This document shows positions 12,912 to 30,056 of a stretch of 64,000 bases of DNA, piece after piece. A program made the position numbers and the translations under genes. The DNA lies in the NCBI RefSeq assembly GCF_016921195.1, contig NZ_JAFGYF010000001.1, positions 248,001-312,000 on the forward strand, in the 5' to 3' direction. The stretch's first letter is position 1. Every line of letters starts with the position of its first letter. The DNA is from Cellulosimicrobium cellulans. Lineage in GTDB: Bacteria > Actinomycetota > Actinomycetes > Actinomycetales > Cellulomonadaceae. Below the pieces are notes generated by a model, which did not search any database, had not been told where the DNA came from, and saw only the letters and a list, made by a program, of their open reading frames with translations.

Positions 12912-13003
12912 CGCCGAACCCGGGGTTGCTGCACCCCCCGGTGCCGAACCCGCCCGTATCCCCGGGTTCGGCACCGTACCGGCCTACAACCCCGGGTTCG
13001 GCG
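12912..13003. repeat. Nested-hairpin repeat, copy 1
   Basis: A 92-bp element begins 8 bp after the lipoprotein stop. The outer stem is 17 bp and perfect (12912-12928 with 12987-13003, arm CGCCGAACCCGGGGTTG). The inner stem is 13 bp and perfect (12940-12952 with 12963-12975, arm GGTGCCGAACCCG) around a 10-nt loop. The motif GCCGAACCCG occurs twice forward and twice inverted. Copy 2 lies at 16183-16272. It may act as a terminator or mRNA-stabilising structure; its duplicate on the other side of the GH87 gene suggests a dispersed palindromic element. Confidence 0.8.
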
Positions 13004-16182: not shown

Positions 16183-16272
16183 GCCGAACCCGGGGTTGCA
16201 GCACCCCTGGTTGCCGAACCCGCCGACATCCCCGGGTTCGGCACCGTGTCCGCCCGTAAACCCGGGTTCGGC
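16183..16272. repeat. Nested-hairpin repeat, copy 2
   Basis: This copy lies 28 bp after the GH87 stop and about 57 bp before the GH31 start. The outer arms GCCGAACCCGGG (16183-16194) and CCCGGGTTCGGC (16261-16272) and the inner arms TGCCGAACCCG (16212-16222) and CGGGTTCGGCA (16233-16243) are perfect, with the same 10-nt inner loop as copy 1. The two copies align over about 90 bp in direct orientation at roughly 85% identity by eye, and they bracket the GH87 gene. Confidence 0.8.
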
Positions 16273-16328: not shown

Positions 16329-18926
16329 ATGACCTTCCCGCCCCGCCTCGCCACCAGCCCCGTCGCCCGTCCCGGGGCGACGATCCGGGGCGACGGGTAC
16401 CGGATCACGGTGCTCGCCGACGGTCTCGTGCGGCTCGAACGCGCGGAGGACGGCGTGTTCGAGGACCGTGCGTCGGCGTTCGCGCTGCACCGCGACCTGC
16501 CGGTGCCGGACTTCCGGGTGACCCGGTCCGGCACCGGTTCCGCGGGCGGGGTCGAGATCGTCACGGACCGGCTGCGCCTGCGGTACGACGGGGGGCCGTT
16601 CAGCGCGAGCGGGCTCAGCGTCGAGGTGCTCGGCGCGCACTCGGCCTACCACGGGGTGTGGCGGTACGGGCAGCGCGGGCCGGGCGTCCCGGCGACGGCC
16701 GTCCCCGTGGAGCCCGACGCCGTCGGGAACGGGCCGGGCAACCTCGGCGGGACGGCGCGCACCCTCGACGAGGCGGACGGCCCGGTCCCGCTGGGCCCCG
16801 GGGTGGTCTCGCGCGACGGCTGGGCCGTGATCGACGACTCGACCAGCCTCGTCCTGGCCGACGACGGCTGGGTCGTCCCGCGCGACGGGTCGCGCCAGGA
16901 CCTGTACGTCTTCGCGTACGGGCACGACTACCGGGCCGCGCTGCGGGCGTTCTACGCGCTGTCCGGCCCGCAGCCGGTGCTGCCCCGCTACGCGCTCGGC
17001 ACGTGGTGGAGCCGCTTCCACCGGTACTCGGCCGACTCGTACGCCGAGCTCGTGCGGCGCTTCCGTCGCGAGGGCGTCCCGTTGTCGGTCGCGGTGCTGG
17101 ACATGGACTGGCACGTGACCGACGTCGACCCGCGCCACGGGAGCGGCTGGACCGGATACTCCTGGAACCGCGACCTGTTCCCCGACCCGGCGGCGTTCCT
17201 GCGGTCCCTGCACGACGACGGCCTGCGCGTCACGCTCAACGTGCACCCCGCGGACGGGGTCCGCGCGTTCGAGGACGCCTACCCGGAGATGGCCACCGCG
17301 CTCGGTCGCGACCCCGAGCACGGCGAGCCGATCCCGTTCGACGTGACGGACCGCGACTTCCTGCGTGCCTACACCGAGGTGCTGCACCGCGGGCTCGAGC
17401 GCGACGGCGTCGACTTCTGGTGGGTCGACTGGCAGCAGGGCGGCGTCTCGCGCGTGCCCGGCGTCGACCCGCTGTGGATGCTCAACCACGTGCACTACCT
17501 CGACAACGCGGGCGAGGAGTCGCGGGCCGCCGCGGGCCGGGCGACGCGAGCCCTGACCTTCTCCCGGTACGCCGGTCCCGGGAGCCATCGCTACCCCGTC
17601 GGGTTCTCGGGCGACTCCGTGATCTCGTGGGAGTCGCTCGACTTCCAGCCCTACTTCACCGCGACCGCGAGCAACATCGGGTACGGGTGGTGGAGCCACG
17701 ACGTGGGCGGCCACATGCACGGCACCAAGGACGACGAGCTCGCGACGCGCTGGGTGCAGTACGGCGTCTTCTCGCCGATCCTGAGGCTGCACTCGGCGGG
17801 GAACCCGTTCACGCGCAAGGAGCCCTGGACGTTCGGCGCCGAGGCCCGCGACGCCCAGGTCGCGGCGCTGCGCCTGCGTCACCGCCTGCTGCCGTACCTG
17901 CACACGATGAACGTCCGGGCCGCGCGCGAGGGCGTCCCGCTCGTCCAGCCGCTCTACCACGAGTGGCCGGAGGCTCCCGAGGCCTATGCGGCCGGCAACC
18001 AGTACCTCTTCGGGTCCGAGCTCGTCGTCGCGCCGATCACGGCACCCGCGGACAGCGCCTCCGGAGCCGCCGCGGTGCGCGCGTGGCTCCCGGAGGGCAC
18101 GTGGGTCGACCTGCTCGGCGGGCTGGTCTACGACGGCGGTCGGGAGGTGTGGCTGCACCGTGACCTCACGGGCATCCCCGTCCTCGCGCGCACCGGCGCG
18201 GTCGTGCCGCTCGACGGCGCGACGGTGCCCGGCAACGGCGTCGCGCACCCCGAGCACGTCGAGGTGCTCGTCGTGGTCGGGTCCGACGGCGCGCTCGACC
18301 TCGTCGAGGACGCGGAGGGCCTCCCCCCGGGCGGCCTCCCCGGCGGGCTGCTCGGCGAGACCCCGGGGGCCGCCCCCCACGAGGCGCGCACACCGGTGAC
18401 GTTCGACCAGGCGACGGGCCGCGCCGCCGTCGGACCCGTCCAGGGGGACGCGCGCGTGGTGCCTCCGGTGCGGCGCTGGACGGTGACGTTCCCGGCGCTC
18501 GGGGTGGCCGGCGGCCGTCCGGTCGACGACGTCGCACCCGTCGTCACCGTCGACGGCACGCCCGCCGACGCCCTCGTCGAGCGCGACGACCGCGGGCTGC
18601 ACGTCACGGTGGAGGCGGTCGCACCGGCGTCCCGCCTCGTCGTCGACCTCGGGCACGACCCCCGCCTCGCGGACAACGACGTCGCCGCCCGCGTGTTCGC
18701 CGCGCTCGACCGTGCTCGCGTCCCCTACGACGACAAGGAGCGCGCCCACCGCGTGCTCACGGCGGACCGGCCCCTGTCGGTGCGCGTGTCGCACCTGCAC
18801 GCGCTCGGACTGCCGCGCGCGCTCGAGTCCGCGCTCACCGAGATCCTCCTGGCCCGTAAGCCAGGCCAGCACGTCACCGGCGGGGACGTCCTCACCGGCC
18901 TGTCGGGAGCCGTCCGACCGGCCTGA
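16329..18926 (+). CDS. GH31 alpha-glucosidase, cytoplasmic
   Basis: 865 aa, no signal peptide. N-terminal beta-sandwich, then the GH31 barrel. The nucleophile Asp367 is in FWWVDWQQG and the acid/base Asp429 in GFSGDSVISW; VLDMDWHVTD, GYSWNRDLFPDP, GYGWWSHDVGGHM and HSAGNPFTRKEPW are further family motifs. The family releases glucose or xylose from alpha-glycosides. Its place after a sugar-binding protein and a secreted GH87 suggests that it finishes degradation of imported alpha-1,3- or mixed alpha-gluco-oligosaccharides. The ATG at 16329 has a weak TAGGAA upstream. It probably belongs to the LacI regulon, although copy 2 of the hairpin repeat lies just before it. Confidence 0.92.
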   Translation: MTFPPRLATSPVARPGATIRGDGYRITVLADGLVRLERAEDGVFEDRASAFALHRDLPVPDFRVTRSGTGSAGGVEIVTDRLRLRYDGGPFSASGLSVEVLGAHSAYHGVWRYGQRGPGVPATAVPVEPDAVGNGPGNLGGTARTLDEADGPVPLGPGVVSRDGWAVIDDSTSLVLADDGWVVPRDGSRQDLYVFAYGHDYRAALRAFYALSGPQPVLPRYALGTWWSRFHRYSADSYAELVRRFRREGVPLSVAVLDMDWHVTDVDPRHGSGWTGYSWNRDLFPDPAAFLRSLHDDGLRVTLNVHPADGVRAFEDAYPEMATALGRDPEHGEPIPFDVTDRDFLRAYTEVLHRGLERDGVDFWWVDWQQGGVSRVPGVDPLWMLNHVHYLDNAGEESRAAAGRATRALTFSRYAGPGSHRYPVGFSGDSVISWESLDFQPYFTATASNIGYGWWSHDVGGHMHGTKDDELATRWVQYGVFSPILRLHSAGNPFTRKEPWTFGAEARDAQVAALRLRHRLLPYLHTMNVRAAREGVPLVQPLYHEWPEAPEAYAAGNQYLFGSELVVAPITAPADSASGAAAVRAWLPEGTWVDLLGGLVYDGGREVWLHRDLTGIPVLARTGAVVPLDGATVPGNGVAHPEHVEVLVVVGSDGALDLVEDAEGLPPGGLPGGLLGETPGAAPHEARTPVTFDQATGRAAVGPVQGDARVVPPVRRWTVTFPALGVAGGRPVDDVAPVVTVDGTPADALVERDDRGLHVTVEAVAPASRLVVDLGHDPRLADNDVAARVFAALDRARVPYDDKERAHRVLTADRPLSVRVSHLHALGLPRALESALTEILLARKPGQHVTGGDVLTGLSGAVRPA

Positions 18927-18936
18927 GCGTCCATCG

Positions 18937-18974
18937 GGGTGCCGCGCCGTTCGTGCTGGGGCGGCGCGGCACCC
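18937..18974 (+). terminator. Terminator hairpin after the GH31 gene
   Basis: A perfect 13-bp stem, GGGTGCCGCGCCG (18937-18949) with CGGCGCGGCACCC (18962-18974), and a 12-nt loop, begins 10 bp after the GH31 stop. There is no U-tract. It ends 30 bp before the first LAL-type box, so it insulates the alpha-glucan locus from the next unit. Confidence 0.75.
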
Positions 18975-19004
18975 GGACGGGCGACCGCCGCGCCGTCGTG
19001 GTCG

Positions 19005-19048
19005 TCACGCGTTCTGCGTGACGACCCCGCGCCGGGCCGTCGGCATGC
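19005..19048 (+). promoter_or_regulatory. LAL-type box 1 and -10 before the CMD-family gene
   Basis: TCACGC-GTTCT-GCGTGA (19005-19021) is a perfect 6-bp inverted repeat with a 5-bp centre. A -10-like CATGCT (19043-19048) starts 21 nt after the box, so the box occupies the -35 region, as for a class II activator site. The same box is found at 21820 and 24386. Confidence 0.65.
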
Positions 19049-19121
19049 TGGTGGAGGGGCGGACGACGGACCCGGGTGGTCAACCCCGGTCGGCGAGGCG
19101 TCGGAAGGGTGGGTGGTCGTC

Positions 19122-19463
19122 GTGGATCACGCAGAGCTGCTCCGGTTGCTCACCGTCAACGACGAGCGCGTCGCTGACCGTGGGGACCTCGGGGAGGACG
19201 CGCTCACCGGGCGGGACCGGGCCCTGGTGCGGATCGCGGCCGCCGTCGCCGTCGGTGCGTCGGTGCCGACGTACGGGGCCGAGATCGACGACGCGGTCGA
19301 GGCGGGTGTCGACCCCGCGGAGGTCGTGGCGGTCCTCGCCGCGGTCGTGCCGGTCGTCGGGCTGCCGACGGTCGTCGCCGCGGCACCGCGGGTCGCGCTC
19401 GCGCTGGGCCTCGAACCCGTCGAAGGCTGGGACGACGCGGAGGAGCCCGGTGGCGTGCCCTGA
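19122..19463 (+). CDS. Carboxymuconolactone decarboxylase (CMD/AhpD-like) family protein
   Basis: 113 aa from GTG 19122 (VDHAELLRLLTVNDERV), chosen because family members start with M-D-H-x-E-L-L; a GTG three codons earlier would crowd the GGAAGGG ribosome site. The all-helical CMD pattern is visible: LTGRDRALVRIAAAVAVGAS, YGAEIDDAVEAGVDPAEVVAVLAAVVPVVG and LALALGL. The AhpD CxxC redox pair is absent, so alkyl-hydroperoxidase activity is unlikely. It lies between the GH31 terminator and the LuxR gene, behind a LAL-type box that also precedes the arylsulfatase and gad operons. Confidence 0.75.
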   Translation: MDHAELLRLLTVNDERVADRGDLGEDALTGRDRALVRIAAAVAVGASVPTYGAEIDDAVEAGVDPAEVVAVLAAVVPVVGLPTVVAAAPRVALALGLEPVEGWDDAEEPGGVP

Positions 19464-19517
19464 GGCCCCGCTCCGGGCCGCCGTCGCGGCGCTCCCGGGT
19501 GATTTCACCCGCTCCTG

Positions 19518-19546
19518 TTGAGGGGTCCGTAGGCCGCTCCTAGGCT
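19518..19546 (+). promoter_or_regulatory. Promoter of the LAL regulator gene (leaderless)
   Basis: TTGAGG (19518-19523) and TAGGCT (19541-19546) are separated by 17 bp. The GTG start at 19553 lies 7 bases after the -10, where transcription would begin, and no Shine-Dalgarno is present. A leaderless mRNA is predicted. No LAL-type box is seen here, so the regulator appears not to be autoregulated by that motif. Confidence 0.6.
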
Positions 19547-19552
19547 GCTGGA

Positions 19553-21787
19553 GTGTCCCACGGGAGCCGCCAGGCGGTCACGGCACGACCGGATCTCAGC
19601 ACGGCGCTGCTCGCGGGCAAGGTCCGGCCACCGGCGCCTCGTCAGGGTGCGGTCTCGCGGCGCGGGCTCGTCGACCGTGCGCGGCGCGACGGCGCTCGGG
19701 TCGTCGTCGTGTCGGCCCCGCCGGGCTACGGCAAGACGACGATGCTCGCCGAGTGGGCGAGCATGGAGGACCGGGCGGTCGCGTGGGCCAGCCTCGACCG
19801 GCTCGACGACGACCCCGGGGCGCTCCTGACCCTCCTCGCGCTCGCGTGCGCGCCCGTCTCGCCGGAGGTCGCCGCGGTGTCCGCGGAGATGCGCGGCACC
19901 GGGGCGGCGATGCTGGGACGGTCCGCGCCGCTGCTCGCGGCGGCGCTCGCGCGCACCGCGACGCCGTTCGTGCTGTTCGTCGACGACCTCCACGAGGCGG
20001 GCTCCGTAGCGTGCCAGGACGTGCTCGAGGTCGTGCTCGGCGGCGTGCCCCCGGGGTCGCAGGTCGTCGTCGCGAGCCGTCGCACACCGGGGCACGGCGC
20101 GCGGCGGCGCGTGGAGGGAGACCTCGTCGAGATCGGGCCGGACGACCTGCGGGTCGACGCCGACGGCGCGCGCGCGATCTTCCGGGCCGCGGGCGCCGCT
20201 CCGGACGACGGCATCGACGCCGTCGTCGAGCGGTGCGAGGGCTGGCCGACGGGCGTCTTCCTCTGCGCGCTGCTCGTGCGCGACGGCGAGGACCCCGCGT
20301 CGCTCACGGGGACCGACCGGTTCGTCGCGGACTACCTGTACCGCGAGTGCATGACCACGCTCTCCGCGCCGACCCAGCACTTCCTGCGCGCCACGGCCGT
20401 GCTCGACCAGCTCTCGGCGGCGACGTGCGACGCCGTGCTCGAGACCACGGACGCCGCAGCGCGCCTGCGCGAGATCGAGGACGCGAACCTGTTCCTCGTC
20501 CCGCTCGACCACCACCGTGGCTGGTTCCGCTACCACCCGCTCTTCCGCGAGTTCCTGCTCGCGGAGCTCGAGCGCGTGGAGCCCGACGCCCTCGCACCGC
20601 TCCACCGGCGCGCCGCCGCGTGGCACGTCGACGAGGGGCTCGAGGCCCGGGCGGTCGAGCACCTCCTCGCGGCGGGCGACGTCGAGGAGGCGGCCGTCCT
20701 CGTCGGGCGCCTCGCGCTGCCGACGTACCAGGACGGTGGGGTCGCCGTCGTGACACGGTGGCTGGAGACCCTCGGCGACGCCGTCGTCGAGGCGTTCCCG
20801 GAGCTCACCGTCGTCGCCGCGTGGCGCGCGCTGCTGCTCGGGGAGTCCGCGACAGCCGAGCGGTGGGCCGCGGTGCTGGAGGGCTTCGACGCGGACCTCC
20901 TCCCCGACGAGGACCGCGTCGCCCTCGAGTCCGCCCGGTGCCAGGTGAGGGCGGCGATGTGCGTCGAGGGCCCGGAGGCGTCGCTCGCGTGTGCGAGCTA
21001 CGCCGTCGAGCACGAGCCCGCCTGGAGTCCGTGGCGGGACCAGGCGCTCCACCTGCTCGGCTCGGCCCACCTGCTCGTGGGGGACCGGGAGGCGGCGCGG
21101 GACGCGTTCGTCGAGGCCGCGGCTCGCGGGACCGAGGCGGGGAACCCGGACTCGGTGCTCCTCAGCGAGGCGGAGCTGGCGATCCTCGCGATGGACGAGG
21201 GACGGTGGGACGACGCCGAGCGGCATGCTCGCGCCGCCGTCGAGACGGTCGACGCGCACCACATGGAGGGCTACTCCACCACCGCGATCGCCCTCGCCGC
21301 GCGCGCCCGCGTGGCCGCCCACCGTGGCGAGCGCACGGCGGCGGAGCGGTTCGTCGCGCGCGGGATGCGCGCACGGGTCCCCTGCACGTACGTCATGCCG
21401 TACCTCGCGCTGCGCGTCCGGCTCCAGCTCGGCTACGCGTGCCTCGCCCTCGGGGACCGCACGACGGCGTCGCACCTCGCCGCCGAGGCTGCGGAGGTGC
21501 TGCGCCGCCGTCCCCGTGTCGGCCTCCTGGCGGGCGAGGTGGCCGCGTTCCGGGAACGGCTCGAGACGGTCGCCGCGACCCACGGCGCTCCGCCGCTCAC
21601 CCCGGCCGAGCTCCGGCTGCTGCCGTACCTCCAGACCCACCTCACCATGGCGGAGATCGGGCGTCGGCTCTTCGTCTCCCGCAACACGGTGAGCACCCAG
21701 GTCGGCGCGATCTATCGCAAGCTCGGCGCGACGACGCGCGGCGCCGCGGTCGAGCGCGCCGTGGCGCTCGGTCTGCTCGGGAGCTGA
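19553..21787 (+). CDS. MalT/LAL-type LuxR-family regulator
   Basis: 744 aa, a STAND ATPase regulator. The Walker A motif is VSAPPGYGKTTMLAEW (Lys61), Walker B is FVLFVDDLHEA, the winged-helix part includes GWFRYHPLFREFLLAEL, and a helical TPR-like sensor fills residues about 380-680. The C-terminal LuxR HTH is LTPAELRLLPYLQTHLTMAEIGRRLFVSRNTVSTQVGAIYRKLG, given here in two parts: LTPAELRLLPYLQTHLTMAE and IGRRLFVSRNTVSTQVGAIY. Such proteins bind ATP and an inducer, oligomerise, and activate promoters. It sits amid three identical promoter boxes and is their most likely activator (inference). The signal sensed is unknown. Confidence 0.9.
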   Translation: MSHGSRQAVTARPDLSTALLAGKVRPPAPRQGAVSRRGLVDRARRDGARVVVVSAPPGYGKTTMLAEWASMEDRAVAWASLDRLDDDPGALLTLLALACAPVSPEVAAVSAEMRGTGAAMLGRSAPLLAAALARTATPFVLFVDDLHEAGSVACQDVLEVVLGGVPPGSQVVVASRRTPGHGARRRVEGDLVEIGPDDLRVDADGARAIFRAAGAAPDDGIDAVVERCEGWPTGVFLCALLVRDGEDPASLTGTDRFVADYLYRECMTTLSAPTQHFLRATAVLDQLSAATCDAVLETTDAAARLREIEDANLFLVPLDHHRGWFRYHPLFREFLLAELERVEPDALAPLHRRAAAWHVDEGLEARAVEHLLAAGDVEEAAVLVGRLALPTYQDGGVAVVTRWLETLGDAVVEAFPELTVVAAWRALLLGESATAERWAAVLEGFDADLLPDEDRVALESARCQVRAAMCVEGPEASLACASYAVEHEPAWSPWRDQALHLLGSAHLLVGDREAARDAFVEAAARGTEAGNPDSVLLSEAELAILAMDEGRWDDAERHARAAVETVDAHHMEGYSTTAIALAARARVAAHRGERTAAERFVARGMRARVPCTYVMPYLALRVRLQLGYACLALGDRTTASHLAAEAAEVLRRRPRVGLLAGEVAAFRERLETVAATHGAPPLTPAELRLLPYLQTHLTMAEIGRRLFVSRNTVSTQVGAIYRKLGATTRGAAVERAVALGLLGS

Positions 21788-21819
21788 GCGGCCGCTGCCG
21801 CGGGGCGCCGCGCCGTCGA

Positions 21820-21865
21820 TCGCGCGATCTGCGTGATGCCCTCCCGGTGGCGGTGGACCTACGGT
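21820..21865 (+). promoter_or_regulatory. LAL-type box 2 and -10 before the arylsulfatase gene
   Basis: TCGCGC-GATCT-GCGTGA (21820-21836) differs from box 1 at two positions and keeps the right half exactly. The -10 TACGGT (21860-21865) starts 23 nt after the box end. The arylsulfatase ATG is 113 bp further down. Confidence 0.6.
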
Positions 21866-21978
21866 CGACGCGTCGTCGGGCCGCCGGGCGCTCCCCACCT
21901 GCACGACGGTCCGGCGACCTGAGCCGGTCCGGCCGGCGCCGCCGGTCCGTGAGGTCGTGGACAGACAGGAGAGACACG

Positions 21979-24351
21979 ATGAGTGACGAGCCCCGCCGGA
22001 CGGTCGTCGGACGGCCGCTCCCCGCCGAGCGATCCCTGCCGTTCCCGCCCCGCCGGTCGGGGAGCGTCGCCGGCCGGACGATCCAGGAGTCCACCTACTC
22101 GCCGCGCCCGCCGGAACGGCACCTGCCCCCGGACGCGCCGAACGTCGTCGTCATCCTCATCGACGACGCGGGGCCCGCGCTCCCGACGACGCTCGGCGGC
22201 GCGGTGCGCACCCCGACGCTCGACCGGGTCCGCGCGAACGGCATCGGCTACAACCGGTTCCACACGACCGCGATGTGCTCCCCGACCCGTGCGTCGCTGC
22301 TCACCGGGCGCAACCACCACCGCGTCGGCAACGGCCAGATCGCGGAGCTCGCGAACGACTGGGACGGGTACTCGGGGCACATCCCCAAGAGCAGCGCGAC
22401 GATCGCCGAGGTGCTGCGCCAGTACGGGTACGCGACCGGCGCGTGGGGCAAGTGGCACAACACGCCGGCGGAGGAGACGACGGCGGCCGGCCCGTTCGAC
22501 CGCTGGCCCACCGGGTACGGGTTCGAGTACTTCTACGGCTTCCTCGCGGGCGAGGCGTCGCAGTACGAGCCGCACCTGGTGCGGAACACGACCCCGACGC
22601 TGCCGCCGAAGACCCCGGAGGAGGGGTACCACCTCAGCGAGGACATCGCCGACGACGCGATGCGCTGGCTGCGCGACCACAAGGCGAACGCGCCGGACAA
22701 GCCGTTCTTCGTGTACTGGGCCACCGGCGCGCTGCACGGGCCGCACCACATCATGAAGGAGTGGGCGGACAAGTACGCCGGAGCGTTCGACGACGGCTGG
22801 GACGTCTACCGGGAGCGTGCGCTCGCGGGCGCGAAGGCGGCGGGCTGGGTGCCCGAGGACGCCGAGCTGACGCCGCGCCCCGAGAGCCTCGCCGGGTGGG
22901 ACGACATCCCGGACGACCAGAAGGCGTTCCAGGCGCGGCTCATGGAGGTCGCCGCGGGGTTCGGCGAGCACGCGGACGTGCAGGCCGGGCGTCTGCTCGA
23001 CGAGGTCGAGCGGCTGGGCTACGCCGACAACACGATCGTCGTCTACATCTGGGGCGACAACGGCTCGTCGGGCGAGGGGCAGAACGGGACGATCAGCGAG
23101 CTGCTCGCGCAGAACGGCATCCCGTCGACCGTCGAGCAGCACATCGCCGCGCTCGAGGAGCTCGGCGGGCTCGACGCCCTCGGCACTCCGGCGACGGACA
23201 ACCAGTACCACGCCGCGTGGGCGTGGGCCGGGTCGTCGCCGTACCAGGGCATGAAGCTCCTCGCGTCCCACCTGGGCGGCACGCGGAACCCGATGTTCGT
23301 GAGCTGGCCCGGGCACATCGAGCCGGACCCCGTGCCGCGCACGCAGTTCCACCACGTCGTCGACCTCGCACCGACGATCTACGAGATCCTCGGCATCTCC
23401 CACCCCGAGACGGTGAACGGCATCCCGCAGGACCCGATCGACGGGACGAGCTTCGCGTACTCGATCGACGACGCCGGCGCCGAGGGTCGCCGTCGGACGC
23501 AGTACTTCGAGATCATGGGCAGCCGGTCGATCTACGCCGACGGCTGGATGGCCTCGGCGACCGGTCCCCGCCTGCCGTGGGTCCAGGGGATGCCCGCCGG
23601 GATCCAGACCTGGACCCCGGACCAGGACCGGTGGGAGCTGTACCACCTCGACGAGGACTGGAGCCAGGCGCACGACCTCGCCGCGGAGCACCCCGAGAAG
23701 CTCGCGGAGCTCAAGGAGCTCTTCGCCATCGAGGCGGCGCGCAACGACGCCCTCCCGGTGGGCGGCGGCCTGTGGGTGCCGGTCATGCACCCCGAGGACC
23801 GGATCAGCCCGCCGTACACCGCGTGGGACCTCTCGGGCGACACGGTGCGCATCCCGGAGTTCTGCGCGCCCGCGCTGGGCAACCGGCCGAACCACGTGAC
23901 GATCCGGCTGTCCGTCCCCGACGCCGCGAATGGCGTGCTCTACAAGCTCGGGGGAGCGGGCGGCGGGCTCACGTGCTTCCTGCTCGACGGGGTGCTCACG
24001 TACGAGTACAACCTCTTCCTCATCCAGCGGACCGTGGTCCGGTCGAGCGCGCCGCTCGCGGCCGGCGACCACACCGTGGAGGTCGTGACGACATACGTGG
24101 AGCCGCGTCCGGGGGGTCCGCTCGAGGTGGTGCTGCGGGTCGACGGCGACGACGTGGGCTCGGGAACCGTGCCCGTGAGCGCTCCGCTGCTGTTCTCCGC
24201 GAACGACTGCCTCGACGTCGGGCGCGCGTACGGCGGTGCGGTCTCCCGCGCGTACGCCGACCGCATGCCGTTCGCTCTCGACGGGCGCATCGACGCCATG
24301 CACGTGGAGTACCTGCTGCCCGTGAACGAGGCACCCCGCCACGGCGGGTGA
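21979..24351 (+). CDS. Type I arylsulfatase, cytoplasmic-type, about 790 aa
   Basis: 790 aa. NVVVILIDDAGPALPTT supplies the metal Asp residues. The CxPxR motif CSPTRASLLTGR places the formylglycine Cys at residue 100; a formylglycine-generating enzyme would be needed and is not in the window. GAWGKWH and YIWGDNGSSGEGQNG are further sulfatase motifs. The C-terminal 150 residues form a beta-rich module. No signal peptide is visible. It resembles the long arylsulfatases (AtsA/AtsB/AtsD-like) of mycobacteria and streptomycetes. AGGAGAGACACG precedes the ATG. It is preceded by LAL-type box 2, so co-regulation with the gad operon is likely. Its substrate is unknown. Confidence 0.9.
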   Translation: MSDEPRRTVVGRPLPAERSLPFPPRRSGSVAGRTIQESTYSPRPPERHLPPDAPNVVVILIDDAGPALPTTLGGAVRTPTLDRVRANGIGYNRFHTTAMCSPTRASLLTGRNHHRVGNGQIAELANDWDGYSGHIPKSSATIAEVLRQYGYATGAWGKWHNTPAEETTAAGPFDRWPTGYGFEYFYGFLAGEASQYEPHLVRNTTPTLPPKTPEEGYHLSEDIADDAMRWLRDHKANAPDKPFFVYWATGALHGPHHIMKEWADKYAGAFDDGWDVYRERALAGAKAAGWVPEDAELTPRPESLAGWDDIPDDQKAFQARLMEVAAGFGEHADVQAGRLLDEVERLGYADNTIVVYIWGDNGSSGEGQNGTISELLAQNGIPSTVEQHIAALEELGGLDALGTPATDNQYHAAWAWAGSSPYQGMKLLASHLGGTRNPMFVSWPGHIEPDPVPRTQFHHVVDLAPTIYEILGISHPETVNGIPQDPIDGTSFAYSIDDAGAEGRRRTQYFEIMGSRSIYADGWMASATGPRLPWVQGMPAGIQTWTPDQDRWELYHLDEDWSQAHDLAAEHPEKLAELKELFAIEAARNDALPVGGGLWVPVMHPEDRISPPYTAWDLSGDTVRIPEFCAPALGNRPNHVTIRLSVPDAANGVLYKLGGAGGGLTCFLLDGVLTYEYNLFLIQRTVVRSSAPLAAGDHTVEVVTTYVEPRPGGPLEVVLRVDGDDVGSGTVPVSAPLLFSANDCLDVGRAYGGAVSRAYADRMPFALDGRIDAMHVEYLLPVNEAPRHGG

Positions 24352-24385
24352 GCGGTCGCGACGACGTCCCGCCCCCGGAGCCACT

Positions 24386-24430
24386 TCACGTGTTCTGCGT
24401 GAGGACGTGACCGGCGGCGGGCGCAAACCT
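24386..24430 (+). promoter_or_regulatory. LAL-type box 3 and -10 before the DUF6325-gad operon
   Basis: TCACGT-GTTCT-GCGTGA (24386-24402) has one mismatch to box 1. A weak -10 candidate AAACCT (24425-24430) starts 22 nt after the box end, the same spacing as at boxes 1 and 2. The first gene starts at 24479. Confidence 0.6.
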
Positions 24431-24478
24431 GAGGACAGGCCCGCGCGCCGCGCGGGACGGATGCGGAGAGGACGGACC

Positions 24479-24955
24479 ATGACGCAGGAACTCAGCGACC
24501 GGCTCGGTGACGAGCTCGGCGACCTCCGGGAGAGCGGGCCGATCGACTTCCTGGTCATCGAGCTCCCGACCGACCGTGCGACGGGCGACGCGGCCTTCCC
24601 GCACCTCGTCGACCTCGTGGACCGCGGCATCATCCGGGTGCTCGACCTCGTGGTCGTGCGCCGGGAGGACGACGGCAGCGTCATCGGCCTCGGGCTCGAG
24701 GAGCTCGACGACGGGTCGACGAACCTCGCGGTGTTCGAGGGCTCGCGGTCCGGCCTGCTCGGCGACGACGACCTCGACGAGGCCGCGAGCGCCGTCGACC
24801 CCGGCATGACGGCGGTCGTGCTGGTCTACGAGAACGTCTGGGCGGCGCCCTTCGCGACCGCCCTGCGCCGCAACGGCGCCCAGCTCGTCGCGAGCGGGCG
24901 CATCCCGGTCCAGGCGCTCCTCGCGTCGCTGGACGCCACCGAGCCGGACGCCTGA
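24479..24955 (+). CDS. DUF6325-family protein
   Basis: 158 aa. The start of the folded region, GPIDFLVIELP, then HLVDLVDRGIIRVLDLVVVRR, VLVYENVWAAPFA and LRRNGAQLVASGRIP match a small actinobacterial family annotated as DUF6325/DUF1269-like. The family is often encoded with SHOCT-domain proteins and is thought to be membrane-associated or stress-related; no activity is established. AGAGGACGG lies before the ATG. It is the first gene of a five-gene run (spacings of 23, 32, 58 and 5 bp) ending with glutamate decarboxylase and a YrhK-like protein. Confidence 0.75.
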   Translation: MTQELSDRLGDELGDLRESGPIDFLVIELPTDRATGDAAFPHLVDLVDRGIIRVLDLVVVRREDDGSVIGLGLEELDDGSTNLAVFEGSRSGLLGDDDLDEAASAVDPGMTAVVLVYENVWAAPFATALRRNGAQLVASGRIPVQALLASLDATEPDA

Positions 24956-24978
24956 TCCGGCCCCCGAAGGAGGATCCC

Positions 24979-25299
24979 GTGCCAGGACTGCTCCGCGGTG
25001 TCGCGCGCACCGCCGTCATCGCCGGGACGGCGACCGCCGTCTCCAACCGCGTCTCCCGCCGTCAGGCGGGCCGATGGGCGGCCCAGGAGGCCGCGCAGGA
25101 GCCGCAGTACGCCCCGCCGCCGCAGCAGTACGCGCCGGCGCCGGCCGCGTACGCGCCGCCCGCCGCACCCGCCCCGGCCGCGCCGTCCGGGATGGACGCC
25201 CGGATCGAACAGCTCACCCAGCTCGGCGCGCTCCGCGACCAGGGGGTGCTCAGCCCCGAGGAGTTCGAGGCGCAGAAGGCCAGGATCCTCGCCGACTGA
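24979..25299 (+). CDS. SHOCT-domain protein
   Basis: 106 aa, GTG start with a strong AAGGAGGAT. The N-terminal 25 residues (LLRGVARTAVIAGTATAVSNRV) could be a short amphipathic or membrane helix. The middle is Pro/Ala/Gln/Tyr-rich with repeated YAPP/YAPA units. The last 35 residues are a SHOCT domain: RIEQLTQLGALRDQGVLSPEEFEAQKARIL. SHOCT domains occur in small oligomerising proteins of unknown role. The next gene also ends in a SHOCT-like segment, which suggests that the two proteins interact (inference). Confidence 0.85.
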   Translation: MPGLLRGVARTAVIAGTATAVSNRVSRRQAGRWAAQEAAQEPQYAPPPQQYAPAPAAYAPPAAPAPAAPSGMDARIEQLTQLGALRDQGVLSPEEFEAQKARILAD

Positions 25300-25331
25300 G
25301 CGAGGACGCCCCCGACACGAAAGGCATGGAC

Positions 25332-25709
25332 ATGGACACCTTCTGGGACTGGTTCTGGCTCATGGTGTGGTGGTTCTTCTTCGTCATGTATCTGGTGGTC
25401 CTCTTCCAGATCGTCGCGGACCTGTTCCGCGACCGGCACCTCAGCGGGTGGTGGAAGGCGGTGTGGGTCATCGCGCTGATCGTCGTGCCGTTCCTCTCGG
25501 CGCTGATCTACCTCATCGCGCGCGGCAAGGGCATGGGTGAGCGCCACGCGCAGAGCGTCGCGAGCGCCCAGGCGGCGACCGACGCGTACATCCGCAGCGC
25601 GGCGGGCGCGTCCCCGTCCTCGCAGATCGCGGACGCCAAGGCGCTGCTCGACGCGGGCGCGATCGACCAGCAGGAGTTCGCCGCTCTCAAGGCCAAGGCC
25701 CTCGCCTGA
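25332..25709 (+). CDS. PLDc_N-type two-TM protein with C-terminal SHOCT segment
   Basis: 125 aa from the ATG at 25332; GAAAGG lies 7 bases before it, whereas the ATG at 25326 would be only 1 base away. Two transmembrane helices (WDWFWLMVWWFFFVMYLVVLF and WKAVWVIALIVVPFLSALIYLIARG) with RDRHLSGWWKAVW between them match the phospholipase-D N-terminal membrane domain, but no PLD catalytic HKD motif is present. The C-terminus SSQIADAKALLDAGAIDQQEFAALKAKALA is SHOCT-like. It is probably a membrane scaffold within this operon (inference). Confidence 0.82.
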   Translation: MDTFWDWFWLMVWWFFFVMYLVVLFQIVADLFRDRHLSGWWKAVWVIALIVVPFLSALIYLIARGKGMGERHAQSVASAQAATDAYIRSAAGASPSSQIADAKALLDAGAIDQQEFAALKAKALA

Positions 25710-25767
25710 CGCGACGCCGTCGGGACCATCGAACGAGCCGGAACCCGGCGTGTCGGAAGGAACCAGC

Positions 25768-27138
25768 ATGACCGACGAGCAGCACGTCCTGCGCCCGACC
25801 TACACGCGAGCGGGCGTGCGGGCGGTCGCGCCACGGTTCACCCTGCCGGACGCCGAGATGGAGCCGACGTCCGCCTACCAGGTCGTCCACGACGAGGTGA
25901 TGCTCGACGGCAACTCGCGCCTCAACCTCGCGACGTTCGTCGCGACGTGGATGGGCGACGAGGCGGACCGGCTCTACGCCGAGGTCTACGACAAGAACAT
26001 GGTCGACAAGGACGAGTACCCGCGCACCGCGGCGGTCGAGGAGAACTGCTGGCGCATCCTCGGCTCGCTGTGGAACGTGCCCGACGTCCAGGACTGCATC
26101 GGCACGTCGACCATCGGCTCGTCCGAGGCGTGCATGCTCGGGGGCCTGGCGCTCAAGCGGCGGTGGCAGCTCGCGCGCCGGGCGGCGGGCGAGCCGGCGG
26201 ACCGGCCGAACCTCGTCATGAGCTCGGCGGTCCAGGTGTGCTGGGAGAAGTTCTGCAACTACTTCGAGGTCGAGGCGCGGTACGTCCCGATCTCGGAGGA
26301 GCACCCGTGCCTGGACGGCAGCGACCTCGAGAAGTACGTCGACGAGAACACGATCGGGGTCGTCGCGATCATGGGCGTGACCTACACGGGCATGTACGAG
26401 CCGGTGAAGGAGATCGCGGCGGCGCTCGACGCGCTCCAGGAGCGCACCGGTCTCGACGTCCCGATCCACGTCGACGGGGCGTCGGGCGCCATGATCGCGC
26501 CGTTCCTCCAGCCGGAGATCGAGTGGGACTTCCGTCTGGAGCGCGTGCACTCGATCAGCACCTCGGGCCACAAGTACGGCCTCGTGTACCCCGGGGTCGG
26601 CTGGGTCGTGTGGCGCACGCTCGACGCGCTGCCCGAGGAGCTGATCTTCCGGGTGAGCTACCTCGGCGGGAACATGCCGACGCTCGCGCTCAACTTCTCG
26701 CGGCCGGGCGCCCAGGTGCTGCTCCAGTACTTCCAGTTCCTGCGCCTCGGCCGGGAGGGCTACACGGCGATCCAGCAGGAGTGCCAGGACGTCGCCAGGT
26801 ACCTCGCGCACGGCATCGCGGAGATCGGCGCGTTCGACCTGTGGAACGACGGGTCGGACATCCCGGTGTTCGCGTGGCGGCTCAAGCCGGGCCACACCGA
26901 GAACTGGGATCTCTACCACCTCTCGGACCGGCTGCGGATGAAGGGTTGGCTGGTCCCGGCCTACCCCATGCCCGACGACCTCGCGGACCTCACCGTCCAG
27001 CGGATCGTCGTGCGCAACGGCGTGAGCCGAGACCTCGCCGACGACCTCCTGGAGGACATCCGGGTCGAGACCGAGTGGCTCGACGGGCTCACGTCGCCGA
27101 TGCCCGCCGAGGGTCGGCGCTCGGGCTTCCACCACTGA
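25768..27138 (+). CDS. gadB: Glutamate decarboxylase
   Basis: 456 aa PLP enzyme (glutamate to GABA plus CO2, consuming a proton). The PLP lysine is Lys269 in STSGHKYGLVYPGVGW; IGSSEACMLGGLALKRRW, HVDGASGAMIAPF and YFQFLRLGREGYTAI are further GadB motifs. The extreme C-terminus ends in two His residues (GFHH), recalling the C-terminal His that closes the active site of E. coli GadB at neutral pH. GGAAGGAACC precedes the ATG. No GABA antiporter gene is present. It is the fourth gene of the operon behind LAL-type box 3, so an acid- or envelope-stress role is likely. Confidence 0.95.
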   Translation: MTDEQHVLRPTYTRAGVRAVAPRFTLPDAEMEPTSAYQVVHDEVMLDGNSRLNLATFVATWMGDEADRLYAEVYDKNMVDKDEYPRTAAVEENCWRILGSLWNVPDVQDCIGTSTIGSSEACMLGGLALKRRWQLARRAAGEPADRPNLVMSSAVQVCWEKFCNYFEVEARYVPISEEHPCLDGSDLEKYVDENTIGVVAIMGVTYTGMYEPVKEIAAALDALQERTGLDVPIHVDGASGAMIAPFLQPEIEWDFRLERVHSISTSGHKYGLVYPGVGWVVWRTLDALPEELIFRVSYLGGNMPTLALNFSRPGAQVLLQYFQFLRLGREGYTAIQQECQDVARYLAHGIAEIGAFDLWNDGSDIPVFAWRLKPGHTENWDLYHLSDRLRMKGWLVPAYPMPDDLADLTVQRIVVRNGVSRDLADDLLEDIRVETEWLDGLTSPMPAEGRRSGFHH

Positions 27139-27143
27139 CGGTC

Positions 27144-27797
27144 GTGGAGGGGCGGCGGCGTCGTCTGCGGCGCGAGGCGTGGGGTTTCGCGGTCGGGTCG
27201 CTGTGCTTCCTCGTCGGGGCGCTCCCGCCCTACGCCGACGCCGTCGGCGCGGTCACCACGAACGTCACGTTCGTCGTCGGCGCGGTGTTCTTCACCGCCG
27301 CGGCGTTCGTGCAGCTCGGCCTCAGCGGGCGGCGCCCGCCGCGCGCGGGGACGCACCCGGCCGACCGGTGGGACTGGTGGGCGGCGGCCGTCCAGCTCGT
27401 CGGGACGCTGTGCTTCAACGTGAGCACGACGGCGGCGCTCGTGGCGGCGGTCGCCGACCCGACCCGGCTCGGGGCGGGCTGGAGACCCGACGCCTACGGG
27501 TCCGTCGCGTTCCTCGTGTCCTCCGCGTTCGCCGTCGTCGCGACGCGCGACCGCGGGCACCTGTGGGACACGGACGCCCGCACGTGGCACGGCACGTGGC
27601 TCAACCTGGTCGGCTCCGTCGCGTTCGGCGCGTCGGCGGTCGGGGCCTACGTCTCGCCGGCCACGGGCACCTACGTGAGCGAGTGGTGGGACGACGCCGG
27701 CACGCTCGTCGGGGCGGTGTGCTTCCTCGTCGCGGCGCTGCTCTCGCGCCGCGCCGTGGACGCTCCCGCACCGGGCGCCGCCCTCCCGGCCGGGTGA
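27144..27797 (+). CDS. YrhK-like multi-TM membrane protein
   Basis: 217 aa with about six hydrophobic segments in three pairs: GFAVGSLCFLVGALPPYADAV, TFVVGAVFFTAAAFVQLGL, WWAAAVQLVGTLCFNVSTTAALVAAV, YGSVAFLVSSAFAVVAT, TWLNLVGSVAFGASAVGAYV and DDAGTLVGAVCFLVAALLSRR. The pattern G-S-x-x-F-x-x-G followed by W-x-x-x-G-S repeats as in YrhK-domain proteins. The GTG at 27144 lies 5 bp after the gad stop, without a clear Shine-Dalgarno, so it is probably translated by coupling. The role is unknown; it is the last gene before a bidirectional terminator. Confidence 0.72.
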   Translation: MEGRRRRLRREAWGFAVGSLCFLVGALPPYADAVGAVTTNVTFVVGAVFFTAAAFVQLGLSGRRPPRAGTHPADRWDWWAAAVQLVGTLCFNVSTTAALVAAVADPTRLGAGWRPDAYGSVAFLVSSAFAVVATRDRGHLWDTDARTWHGTWLNLVGSVAFGASAVGAYVSPATGTYVSEWWDDAGTLVGAVCFLVAALLSRRAVDAPAPGAALPAG

Positions 27798-27814
27798 GGC
27801 ACCTCGGGTGCCTC
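27796..27814. terminator. Bidirectional terminator between the gad operon and the sialidase gene
   Basis: GAGGCACC (27796-27803) and GGTGCCTC (27807-27814) form a perfect 8-bp stem with a 3-nt loop. It starts next to the stop of the YrhK-like gene and lies 29 bp from the stop of the convergent sialidase gene. Confidence 0.7.
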
Positions 27815-27842
27815 GCCCGCCGCGAGGGCGGCGCCGGGGCGG

Positions 27843-30056
27843 TCAGGCGCAGGTCGCGGCCGTGTAGCCGGCGTCGACCGACCCCGACCCGGTCGTGGCG
27901 GTCGCGGTCCCCGCGTCGACCGCCGCCGTGCGGACCGCGAACGACTGGTACGCCGAGCTGCCCGGCGCCACGTCGGCGACGGTGCGCTCACCGAACGGCG
28001 TGCGCAGCGTGACGTCGGCCGGGACGTCGCCGGTGTTGCGCGCGGTGACCGCGACGTAGGCCCGGCCGGCGAGGCAGCGGCTCGCCGCCTGCACGTCGAG
28101 GGAGACCTCGCTCCCGAGCTCGACCGTCGGACCGTCGAGCTCGACGACGGTCACGCTCGATCCCGACGTGGAGGTCCACGTGGTGTCCGGCGTGAACGAC
28201 CCGCGGTCCAGGTCGGCCTGGGTCACCACGTGGTGCGCGAACGTGCACGTGTACGACCCCTCGGCCGGCAGGGTGCGGTAGCGGCAGTTCTGGGCTGCGT
28301 TCGCGGGGTCGAGGCCCGCGAGGTTCCCGGTCGGGACCACCGAGGCCGCCGCCGTCGACAGGTTGCGGACCGTGTACGTGAAGCGCAGGACGTCGCCGAC
28401 GGCGTACGTCTCCCGGGGGTTGGCGTGGGCTGCCCGCACGGAGATGTTGCCCGGCGCTCCGAAGTACACACCCGGCCCCTCGTGCTCGACCGTCGTGACG
28501 GTCGTGCCGGACGTCGAGGTCCACGTGGTGGTCGGTGCGAAGAACCCGGCGTCGAGGTCGGCCTGCGTGACCGTGTGCCGCGCGGACGTGCACGTGTAGG
28601 CGGCACGCGGTGCGAGGTCACGGAAGCGGCAGTTCGGCGCGCCCTGGGCGGGGTCGAACCGCTCGAGGTTCCCGGTCGGGGAGACCGTCGTGACGGCGTC
28701 AGACAGGTTCGTCACGGTGAACGAGTACGTGACGACGTCGCCGACGGTGTAGCCGCCCGCGGGGGCCGTGCTCGTCACGCTCGCGGAGGTGACCTCGATG
28801 TCGCCCGGCGTGCTGCTCGGCGCGGCGAGGAGCCAGTCGTGGTCGAGCTTGGCGAACCGGATGCCGCCGCCCCCACCGTCGGGCTCGTAGAGCAGGCCGA
28901 CCGTGCCGTCGGGGAGCGTCGCGAGGGTCGAGTACGCCATGCCTCCCGGCTGGAAGACGCGCGCGACGGGCCACGTCTCACCGTCGTCGTAGCTGACGCG
29001 GACCGTGCCGTTGACGCGGCCCGACTGCGACGCCGCGTTCGAGAAGAGGAGCACCTTGGCCTCGTCGGAGCCTTGCGGGGCGTTCGGGTACGCGCGCACG
29101 ATCGCGGCGTTGTTCGTCGGGTCGGGCAGCTCGCGGTCGAGGGTCACCGGGCCGTACGTGACGCCGCCGTCGGTCGAGTAGGCCACCTTGCGGAAGCCCG
29201 AGCGCGCGGAGTCGCGCGAGTTGAGCATGACGCGCCCGTCGGAGAGCTCGACGGTCTTGTTCTCGTCCATGCCGGTGCCGACCGGGGTCCCGACCTGCCA
29301 CGTCTCGCCGTGGTCGTCGGAGTACACGGACACGGCCTGGAACTGCCCCGAGCCGTTGATGATCGTGTACTGCTGCAGCAGGCGCCCCGCGTGCTCGCCG
29401 TAGCGGAGCTGGATGCCCTGGCCCGAGGCGGCGAAGCGCGACCGCCAGCCCAGGTCGGCCGTGACGTCCGCGGTGATGGTGCGGTGCGTCCACGTGCGCC
29501 CGTTGTCGGTCGAGGTGGAGACGTTCGCGTGGATGACGTTGCGCGCGGCCGGGTCGACACCGGGCTGGGAGCCCCCGAAGCCCTGGTCGTACGACTTCAC
29601 GTGGAAGTTGAAGACGGTGCCCGTCTCGCGGTCGACGACGTAGCTCGGGTCCGAGTACCCCTCGATCGGTGCGGTGGTCCTCCCGGCCGCGACGACCTCC
29701 TGCGGACCCCACGTGGCGCCCGAGTCGGTGGAGCGGCGCTGAAGGATCGAGTTCGGCCCGGGGGAGTCGGCCGCGGTGGGCCGGCCGTCGTAGGACGCGA
29801 GGACGTCGCCGTTGGGGGCGACGGTGAGCGCCGGGATGCGGTAGTTGGGGAAGCCGCCCTGGCCGTTGGTCGCGAGCTGCTGCTCGGTGTACGTGCCCGG
29901 CCCGCCGGTCGCGGGAGCGAGGTCGTGGTCGGGCGCGAGGGTCGTGTGGTGCGCGGCCGCCGTCGTGACGGGGACGACGGCACCGCCCACCCCGAGCGCG
30001 AGCGCGGTGGCGAGGGTCAGCGCGCGTCGCGCGGGTCTGCGGAGGTGTCCGATCAT
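27843..30056 (-). CDS. Secreted exo-sialidase with two tandem C-terminal repeats
   Basis: 737 aa. Signal peptide MIGHLRRPARRALTLATALALGVGG to about TTAAAHH. The six-bladed GH33 propeller (about 45-405) has the FRIP-type YRIPAL and five Asp boxes: STDSGATW, STDNGRTW, SDDHGETW, STDGGVTY and SYDDGETW. Two similar repeats of about 110 aa follow (about 418-528 and 532-642), each with YTVGDVV/YAVGDVL, PTGNL, NCRFRDL/NCRYRTL, HTVTQADLD and TTWTSTSG, then a last beta module. It releases sialic acid from glycans. GGAAGGAAC precedes the ATG. An operator like that of the transporter operon lies 79 bp upstream. No sortase motif is seen. Confidence 0.93.
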   Translation of the reverse strand: MIGHLRRPARRALTLATALALGVGGAVVPVTTAAAHHTTLAPDHDLAPATGGPGTYTEQQLATNGQGGFPNYRIPALTVAPNGDVLASYDGRPTAADSPGPNSILQRRSTDSGATWGPQEVVAAGRTTAPIEGYSDPSYVVDRETGTVFNFHVKSYDQGFGGSQPGVDPAARNVIHANVSTSTDNGRTWTHRTITADVTADLGWRSRFAASGQGIQLRYGEHAGRLLQQYTIINGSGQFQAVSVYSDDHGETWQVGTPVGTGMDENKTVELSDGRVMLNSRDSARSGFRKVAYSTDGGVTYGPVTLDRELPDPTNNAAIVRAYPNAPQGSDEAKVLLFSNAASQSGRVNGTVRVSYDDGETWPVARVFQPGGMAYSTLATLPDGTVGLLYEPDGGGGGIRFAKLDHDWLLAAPSSTPGDIEVTSASVTSTAPAGGYTVGDVVTYSFTVTNLSDAVTTVSPTGNLERFDPAQGAPNCRFRDLAPRAAYTCTSARHTVTQADLDAGFFAPTTTWTSTSGTTVTTVEHEGPGVYFGAPGNISVRAAHANPRETYAVGDVLRFTYTVRNLSTAAASVVPTGNLAGLDPANAAQNCRYRTLPAEGSYTCTFAHHVVTQADLDRGSFTPDTTWTSTSGSSVTVVELDGPTVELGSEVSLDVQAASRCLAGRAYVAVTARNTGDVPADVTLRTPFGERTVADVAPGSSAYQSFAVRTAAVDAGTATATTGSGSVDAGYTAATCA

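Follow-up and report, generated by a model that had tools for sequence, protein, structure and literature searches.

Three closely similar palindromic boxes lie around the gene of a 744-aa STAND LuxR-family regulator, here called LuxR1 (19553..21787), in a stretch of 64,000 nucleotides (nt) from Cellulosimicrobium cellulans (assembly GCF_016921195.1, contig NZ_JAFGYF010000001.1, positions 248,001 to 312,000 of the forward strand; hereafter the window). We consider it highly probable that LuxR1 is a MalT-like activator of the genes behind these boxes, and the boxes are very probably its docking sites, as judged from their sequence and distribution. Box and LuxR1 co-segregate across genomes. The boxes, their conservation, the co-segregation, the target set and the promoter spacing are all computed results.

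Results

The palindrome TCACGC-N5-GCGTGA occurs exactly at box 1 (TCACGCGTTCTGCGTGA, 19005..19021), 5' of the CMD-family gene, and with one mismatch each at box 2 (TCGCGCGATCTGCGTGA, 21820..21836), 5' of the sulfatase gene, and at box 3 (TCACGTGTTCTGCGTGA, 24386..24402), 5' of the DUF6325 operon; window features written as start..end lie on the plus strand. The central letters G[TA]TCT are common to all three 17-nt boxes, and in box 1 the arms are lengthened by 5 further complementary pairs, giving an 11-bp perfect inverted repeat with a 5-nt loop. An earlier sequence-only reading had placed three identical boxes at 19005, 21820 and 24386, each upstream of its own transcription unit, namely CMD, sulfatase and DUF6325-SHOCT-SHOCT-GAD-YrhK (GAD, glutamate decarboxylase). 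The places and the units were borne out; the identity was not, one box being exact and two having one mismatch.

With up to two mismatches, the palindrome was no commoner in the window than expected (10 against 12.1), and at 0-1 mismatch boxes 1-3 were its only window sites. The degenerate core TCRCGYGWTCTGCGTGA, a pattern derived from the three window sites themselves, had 3 exact sites in the whole 4,580,223-base genome, all at this locus, and none with 1 mismatch, so that the three places of the earlier reading are the only exact ones genome-wide. More loosely, a TCAnnC-N5-GnnTGA palindrome precedes several units around the regulator gene, boxes 2 and 3 each being one letter off, and TCAYSC-N5-GSRTGA had 5 exact sites in the own genome, with TCC/GGA arms in 0/5. 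Three loose-palindrome sites of the own genome were not accepted as boxes: C1:503487 is intergenic, with conservation not established, and of C1:527512 and C19:60077 one lies inside a gene and the other touches a start codon. The own-genome site C1:404852 (locus L285), which matches the extended pattern described below, was also set aside, with no gene called downstream. Chance as the origin of the boxes was rejected by the genome-wide, conservation and co-segregation tests.

A DUF6325-like protein was encoded in 28 of 59 related genomes, and one region each was compared from 20 of those encoding it. Boxes recurred 5' of CMD, sulfatase and DUF6325 in related genomes, and box 1 read TCATGCGTTCTGYGTGA in 7 close relatives. 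In rows hand-picked from loci carrying a box, the mean pairwise identity of the box versus that of the 30 nt upstream was 0.97 vs 0.51 for CMD (7 sequences), 0.97 vs 0.42 for sulfatase (8 sequences) and 0.87 vs 0.46 for DUF6325 (9 sequences). The stretch 5-30 nt 3' of the box, holding the putative -10, was fairly conserved (CMD 0.89, sulfatase 0.77, DUF6325 0.60). LuxR1 orthologues (at least 46% identity) were present in 26 of 150 genomes of the family, the next matches being 37% identical over full length, plus one partial match at 41%. These 26, together with L121, gave 27 non-redundant LuxR1 loci, and 74 sites in them had at least 11 of the 12 letters of TCAYSC-N5-GSRTGA. As assigned with a home-made gene caller, 70 of the 74 were intergenic, where intergenic DNA makes up 43,543 of 438,347 bases (9.9%). 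The boxes thus stand before the same genes in orthologous loci and are not scattered at random through coding DNA, as the sequence-only reading had expected.

Where genes have been lost or moved, the boxes stay with their units. A box precedes GAD where the DUF6325 and SHOCT genes are absent (L089), precedes a PLDc_N-like SHOCT gene where DUF6325 is absent (L097 and L100-L102, four loci), and, in Oerskovia and others, occupies the gap between divergently oriented CMD and DUF6325 genes. In all 11 LuxR1+ Cellulosimicrobium genomes GAD was found inside a boxed gene run, in pieces in the draft G014.

Among the genes of the 27 loci, LuxR1 was the sole family kept in 27/27; judged by eye, it alone of the 16 most widespread families listed binds DNA. 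The counts were 26 for CMD, 22 for DUF6325, 21 for sulfatase, 19 for the membrane SHOCT protein, 14 for SHOCT1, and 11 each for GAD and YrhK. The 744-aa STAND LuxR protein, singled out earlier as the only activator encoded between the boxes, is supported as their regulator by this count and by the co-segregation. We scored 80 DUF6325 loci of named genomes, the best among 443, between 250 nt upstream of the gene and 40 nt into it. Where LuxR1 was nearby (15/80), the best site matched 12/12 letters in 11 loci and 11/12 in 4; the other 65 loci had 12/12 in one (L146, with CCC/GGG arms), 11/12 in six, and at most 10/12 in 58. Exact TCRYGCGNTCTGCRTGA was found in 22 of the 150 family genomes, comprising 21 of 26 LuxR1+ and 1 of 124 LuxR1- genomes (Fisher p 6e-20, relatedness of genomes ignored), and 29 of its 32 places fell at the LuxR1 locus. 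All 26 LuxR1+ genomes had the extended pattern TCRYNYGNTYNGSRTGANG (88 hits), as did 10 of 26 LuxR1- genomes hand-picked out of the 124 (17 hits), and its pattern-reversed controls gave 1 and 1. With a weight matrix built from 38 boxes, 15 LuxR1+ loci (291 kb) gave 46 places scoring at least 14, and 74 other loci (1.37 Mb) gave 15.

A second regulator, LuxR2, allowed the pairing to be viewed from both sides within one genus. LuxR2 is another STAND-LuxR protein, of ~900 aa and ~30% identical, and adjoins TCACCC-N5-GGGTGA in some loci. It was encoded in 14 of 17 Cellulosimicrobium genomes, and exact TCACCCNNNNNGGGTGANG occurred in precisely those 14 and in 0/3 others; LuxR1 was encoded in 11 of the 17, and the extended LuxR1-type pattern occurred in precisely those 11 and in 0/6 others. 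The window's genome has LuxR1 only and is without a CCC box; G002, G009, G010 and G012 have LuxR2 only, with CCC boxes and no extended LuxR1-type site; G003 and G015 have neither regulator. The recognition helix of LuxR1 mostly reads S/T-RNT(V/A)S..(V/I/E) and then GSIYRKLG, and that of LuxR2 mostly SVNTVKTHLKSVYRKLG. In G002 and G010 the sulfatase promoter carries TCGCCC-N5-GGGTGA and the DUF6325 promoter TCACAC-N5-GGGTGA, as if both had been rewired to LuxR2.

Next to the boxes, candidate -10 elements were found at 19044..19049 (CATGCT, 22 nt after box 1) and 21860..21865 (TACGGT, 23 nt after box 2). The distance of 21-23 nt claimed earlier for all three boxes therefore holds for these two, and the candidate of box 3 is weak. 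Among 65 promoters, which were oriented by hand and of which a few are doubtful, a [TC]ANNNT began 22 nt after the box in 20 and 23 nt after it in 15 (35/65), and any other offset within 45 nt accounted for at most 2 cases each. The box is asymmetric, as 63 of 64 unique promoters have G at the second position behind it, and a crude promoter scan of the region found no sigma-70-type consensus. Since the usual distance from the -10 to the transcription start is 6-7 nt, the box would end ~35 nt before the start and have its centre near -43.

On this basis we propose that LuxR1 acts as a MalT-like activator switched on by an inducer and ATP. In its active form the protein would dock on the 17-bp palindrome TCAYGC-N5-GCRTGA through a GerE-domain dimer, with TCRYGCGNTCTGCRTGA followed by N-G as the box consensus. 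Centred near -43, the box would abut the -35 region and stand in for the -35 element, and LuxR1 would recruit RNA polymerase at promoters with a -10 located 22-23 nt downstream of the box. In this manner it would drive the CMD gene, the sulfatase gene, the DUF6325-SHOCT-SHOCT-GAD-YrhK operon and a bestrophin-like gene on another contig, and in Oerskovia also the antiporter GadC. Binding of DNA by LuxR1 is suggested by the sequence comparisons, and activation by analogy, because the geometry fits that of the Actinoplanes MalT-like activator, as far as described in the available sections of PMC7567727.

The extended pattern had 36 off-locus hits in LuxR1+ genomes. A bestrophin-like gene followed 8 of these and GadC 6; a second CMD gene and an unlinked sulfatase gene accounted for 2 hits apiece, and a single hit stood in front of each of a second PLDc_N-like SHOCT gene, a DUF7144 gene and a DUF998-like gene (28.7 bits, below the cut-off of 30), with some family names resting on sequence likeness to a scanned copy; the remaining hits were 8 of one recurrent sequence, 2 coding, 2 intergenic without a near gene and 3 unread. 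The recurrent site TCACATGGTCGGCATGAGG (8 genomes, mostly Oerskovia) was dropped, as both copies read, out of 8, lay in coding sequence. In the own genome the bestrophin-like gene (PF14023, 109.6 bits; contig C22, outside the window) has TCACGCGTTTCGCGTGA 87 nt upstream. This box matched 12/12 letters in 8/8 LuxR1+ Cellulosimicrobium genomes (own counted) with the gene at least 91% identical, 11/12 in G013, 8/12 in LuxR1- G012 and 10/12 in G040 (LuxR1 status not searched); LuxR1+ G007 and G014 had no such gene at E <= 1e-20. In Cellulomonas humilata and at 5 of 7 loci from the main Oerskovia genus, the DUF6325 gene run ends with an orthologue (66-74%) that lacks its own box. GadC, a glutamate/gamma-aminobutyrate (GABA) antiporter (NF053662, 695 bits vs cut-off 640), was boxed in 7/7 genomes of the main Oerskovia genus, with matrix scores of 17.9-26.2 vs 20.7-34.7 for the training boxes; 1280 random 310-bp windows had a 99th percentile of 9.1 and a maximum of 28.3, in a set that contained the LuxR1+ locus L148. 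The local regulon of the earlier reading thus keeps its targets at the locus, and its purely local character is rejected by the off-locus boxes at the bestrophin-like gene and GadC.

We also examined the products of the locus. The CMD-family protein (19122..19463, start taken at GTG 19122; PF02627, 31.1 bits vs cut-off 23) is without cysteine and is therefore not a standard AhpD-type enzyme. LuxR1, in which PF00196 and PF13191 were above cut-off, has an N-terminal P-loop NTPase with Walker A APPGYGKT at residue 55 and Walker B VLFVDD at 140 (AAA_16, PF13191, 34.2 bits vs 32.6) and a C-terminal GerE helix-turn-helix at residues 681-734 (PF00196, 30.2 bits vs 23.5). A candidate MalT-like TPR region reached 43.8 bits with PF17874, slightly below the cut-off of 45, and the NCBIfam MalT model gave 230.8 bits, below the equivalog cut-off of 537, so that LuxR1 is not MalT proper. 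The predicted promoter of the LuxR1 gene, TTGAGG-N17-TAGGCT (19518..19546), is followed 6 nt later by the GTG start codon, and the stretch CTAGGCTGC in it is present in 10 of 13 aligned rows, own row counted. This promoter looks canonical and its transcript would be leaderless; hence LuxR1 is probably produced independently of the box, with a ligand as its switch. Boxes between the regulator and a divergent gene are seen in some distant loci. Just 5' of the LuxR1 promoter, at 19496-19511, lies CGGGTGATTTCACCCG, an inverted repeat of CCC-type half-sites in reverse arrangement, of which only GGGTGATTTC is retained in the seven closest relatives; CGGGTGATTTCACCCG is a possible site of LuxR1 autoregulation.

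The sulfatase (21979..24351, 790 aa; PF00884, 190.7 bits) has the CSPTR formylglycine motif at residue 100. Behind box 3, the DUF6325 protein (24479..24955, 158 aa; PF19850, 52.4 bits), SHOCT protein 1 (24979..25299, 106 aa; PF09851, 37.3 bits), the membrane SHOCT protein (25326..25709, 127 aa; PF09851, 28.7 bits), GAD (25768..27138, 456 aa; TIGR01788, 626.9 bits vs cut-off 380.4) and a YrhK-like membrane protein (27144..27797, 217 aa; PF14145, 41.2 bits) are encoded in one run, 24479-27797, with intergene gaps of 23, 26, 58 and 5 nt. The predicted structure of the DUF6325 protein (pLDDT 69, moderate confidence) had no PDB match at E <= 0.001 and gave no functional hint, and 'DUF6325' appeared in none of the papers searched. 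A PLDc_N label had been put on the second SHOCT protein, in which Pfam reports only SHOCT at E <= 0.001; its N-terminus is PLDc_N-like by likeness to the paralogue L220 (PLDc_N 22.0 vs cut-off 23.3). A paper on phage-shock and SHOCT-like domains lends general support to SHOCT at membranes, with nothing on this gene set in its available sections (PMC11237479). GAD carries the pyridoxal phosphate lysine motif SGHK at residue 266; a second GAD gene of the own genome (G000:C1:188314-189663, outside the window), 67% identical, is without a box. Around upstream carbohydrate-enzyme genes, the repeat AACCCCGGGTTCGGC is present three times, at 12913-12927 (-), 12988-13002 (+) and 16183-16197 (-), where 0.07 matches to the pattern used would be expected by chance.

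Discussion

Several observations weigh against LuxR1 as the activator of a boxed regulon, or limit how far it can be pressed. LuxR1 loci were the source of both the patterns and the weight matrix, which makes the LuxR1+ counts partly circular, and the genomes are related, which the Fisher tests ignore. LuxR1- G012 has one exact TCGCGCGCTCTGCGTGA, with no gene called nearby and without the G at +2 required by the extended pattern, and there was no such box near the regulator in two loci of 37%-identical LuxR relatives (L103, L104). The -10 candidate of box 3 (AAACCT, 22 nt) is not of [TC]ANNNT form, and 30 of the 65 promoters are without [TC]ANNNT at 22-23 nt. As to the glutamate/GABA targets, no GadC was found at E <= 1e-60 in a genome named Oerskovia flava (G026, of another genus, g11), no box at 4 GadC orthologues (84-89%) in other LuxR1+ genomes and none at Oerskovia GAD genes; the own genome has no GadC at E <= 1e-60 either, which weakens an acid-resistance reading.

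Three other accounts of the boxes were considered. They could be operators of a repressor, LuxR1 or another protein, since the box overlaps the expected -35 place and LuxR-family repressors exist, e.g. the LAL protein SCO6993 (PMC9628970, in its available sections). We regard this as very improbable: recognisable -10s at a fixed 22-23 nt across genes and genera fit an activator, as do the asymmetry of the box and the lack of a sigma-70-type consensus, and the closest characterised analogue, according to the available sections of PMC7567727, is an activator with the same spacing. An unlinked transcription factor might also bind the boxes, LuxR1 co-segregating merely as a member of the gene group, and one box with a high matrix score (27.2) does stand before a PLDc_N-like SHOCT gene in a Propionibacteriaceae metagenome-assembled genome (L123:9424) with no LuxR1 in the locus examined. 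However, no family other than LuxR1 occurs in 27/27 loci and no other one of the 16 listed is, by eye, DNA-binding; the bestrophin-like gene and GAD lose their box in LuxR1- G012; and G002 and G010, with LuxR2 and no LuxR1, have sulfatase and DUF6325 sites with the LuxR2-like arms TCRCMC-N5-GGGTGA. We hold such a factor to be very improbable. Finally, the perfect inverted repeat of box 1 with its short loop recalls a terminator hairpin, here of the GH31 glycosidase gene, and the likeness of the other boxes would then be chance. This reading was rejected and has a negligible chance of being right, as the terminator scan found no terminator-like site in 18900-28000 and the sequence, position and spacing of the box are conserved before at least 3 different genes in several genera.

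With LuxR1 as the activator, the role of its regulon can be approached through the targets. The bulk of these are SHOCT proteins or small membrane proteins, along with a bestrophin-like protein, a sulfatase and, in two genera, half of a glutamate/GABA system. We tentatively suggest, with slightly less than even confidence, that they would serve an envelope and acid/ion-balance response. The link to acid, which rests on the identities of GAD and GadC, is only suggestive because the own genome has no clear GadC; of an AR2-like set, GAD is present in the boxed run here and GadC was not found in that genome. The main rival is nutrient control, in which the regulon would answer carbohydrate supply (maltodextrin or sulfated glycan) or the growth phase instead of an acid or envelope stress. 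It is favoured by the putative MalT-like TPR region of LuxR1, by the sulfatase as a main target, by a GH31 gene preceding CMD in several Cellulosimicrobium loci (family in 6/27 loci), and by induction of the Actinoplanes MalT-like regulon on maltose (PMC7567727, available sections). Nevertheless, no box was found before GH31, and GAD, GadC, YrhK, DUF7144, the bestrophin-like protein and the SHOCT membrane proteins are without an obvious glycan link; as far as the available sections of PMC7567727 go, the Actinoplanes regulon, too, contains no maltose genes but does contain an arginine deiminase pathway. Nutrient control thus appears possible, if rather doubtful.

LuxR1 and LuxR2 may belong to a larger family. 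Actinobacteria could have three or more pairs of STAND-LuxR protein and box, distinct in the middle arm letters and in the recognition helices but with a single promoter geometry, the arms being YGC for LuxR1, CCC for the 900-aa paralogue and TCC for Actinoplanes. The pairs would share targets and be rewired by arm change, in a widespread envelope and acid/ion-balance response, and the shared pool would consist of SHOCT membrane proteins, DUF6325, DUF7144, bestrophin-like proteins, sulfatases and amino-acid-based acid-consuming pathways. We offer this as a speculation that we would doubt a little sooner than believe; if true, it would amount to an undescribed response with a readable DNA specificity code. 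In a Streptomyces locus (L178:3738-4150), two CCC-type boxes lie between a radical-SAM-type gene, which by eye resembles a sulfatase maturase, and a divergent sulfatase gene. In a Blastococcus metagenome-assembled genome (L176:2880-4606), TCATCC-N5-GGATGA and mixed-arm boxes precede a PLDc_N-like SHOCT gene, a DUF7144-like gene and a membrane protein gene (families mostly by eye), so that the Actinoplanes-type box is linked to the same target families.

To our knowledge, STAND-LuxR regulators are common in Actinobacteria and few have a known site or target set. Our results tie together site, promoter geometry, regulator and target list across genera, with a natural double dissociation within one genus, and they make the specificity code of the STAND-LuxR family directly testable. 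The DUF6325 and SHOCT proteins gain a context, and a MalT-like regulator is linked to the glutamate/GABA system. In the literature searched, which covered few subscription papers, there was no description of these arms, this target set or the paired co-segregation. The earlier remark that no described system of this kind was known can thus stand for the gene set, and it fails for the motif class and its overlap with the -35, both known in Actinoplanes (PMC7567727, available sections).

Three known regulators share part of these features. The Escherichia coli MalT protein is a STAND ATPase with a TPR-type sensor and a GerE output domain, and its site lies next to the -35. LuxR1 appears to be built alike, with a putative TPR-type region, and has its box beside the -35. 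The boxes of E. coli MalT are GGGGA(T/G)GAGG repeats, as given in the available sections of PMC7567727, whereas a palindrome is found here. LuxR1 further differs from MalT in its model score (230.8 vs 537 bits), and none of the targets found for it is a maltose gene. GadE of E. coli is a small protein and is not known to have a STAND part. It is, like LuxR1, a LuxR-related activator, acting on glutamate decarboxylase and GadC, but through a 20-bp gad box 63 bp upstream of the start, where the LuxR1 box abuts the -35 (PMC4393010, PMC6128205, available sections). Here, unlike with GadE, boxes were found at just one of the two halves of the GAD system in either genus. SCO6993 of Streptomyces coelicolor is, like LuxR1, a large ATP-binding LuxR protein, and it binds palindromes; it is a repressor, however, and in the available sections the sites footprinted for it in two promoters are reported to lack homology to each other, and none shown resembles the LuxR1 box (PMC9628970).

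The closest counterpart is ACSP50_3915 of Actinoplanes sp. SE50/110, and a MalT-like activator with TCAnnC-N5-GnnTGA boxes is thus already known; what follows on it is drawn from the available sections of PMC7567727. Its motif, TCATCC-5nt-GGATGA, overlaps the -35, the 3' end lying 34.4 +/- 1.0 nt from the transcription start in 17 promoters. On deletion of the regulator, 42 of 51 genes of the region fall (the abstract gives 40 as activated), and the genes of the region cover an arginine deiminase pathway as well as amino acid permeases. There, activation was established by deletion and overexpression. The arms also differ, TCC/GGA against YGC/GCR, and none of the 5 exact own-genome sites of TCAYSC-N5-GSRTGA has the TCC/GGA arms; expression in Actinoplanes is linked to maltose, the promoters per genome are far fewer here, and the main text of the paper is without SHOCT, glutamate decarboxylase or sulfatase. 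In both systems, however, a MalT-like LuxR regulator gene lies among its own targets, the palindrome has the same length and spacing, and an amino-acid-based pathway is among the targets (PMC7567727).

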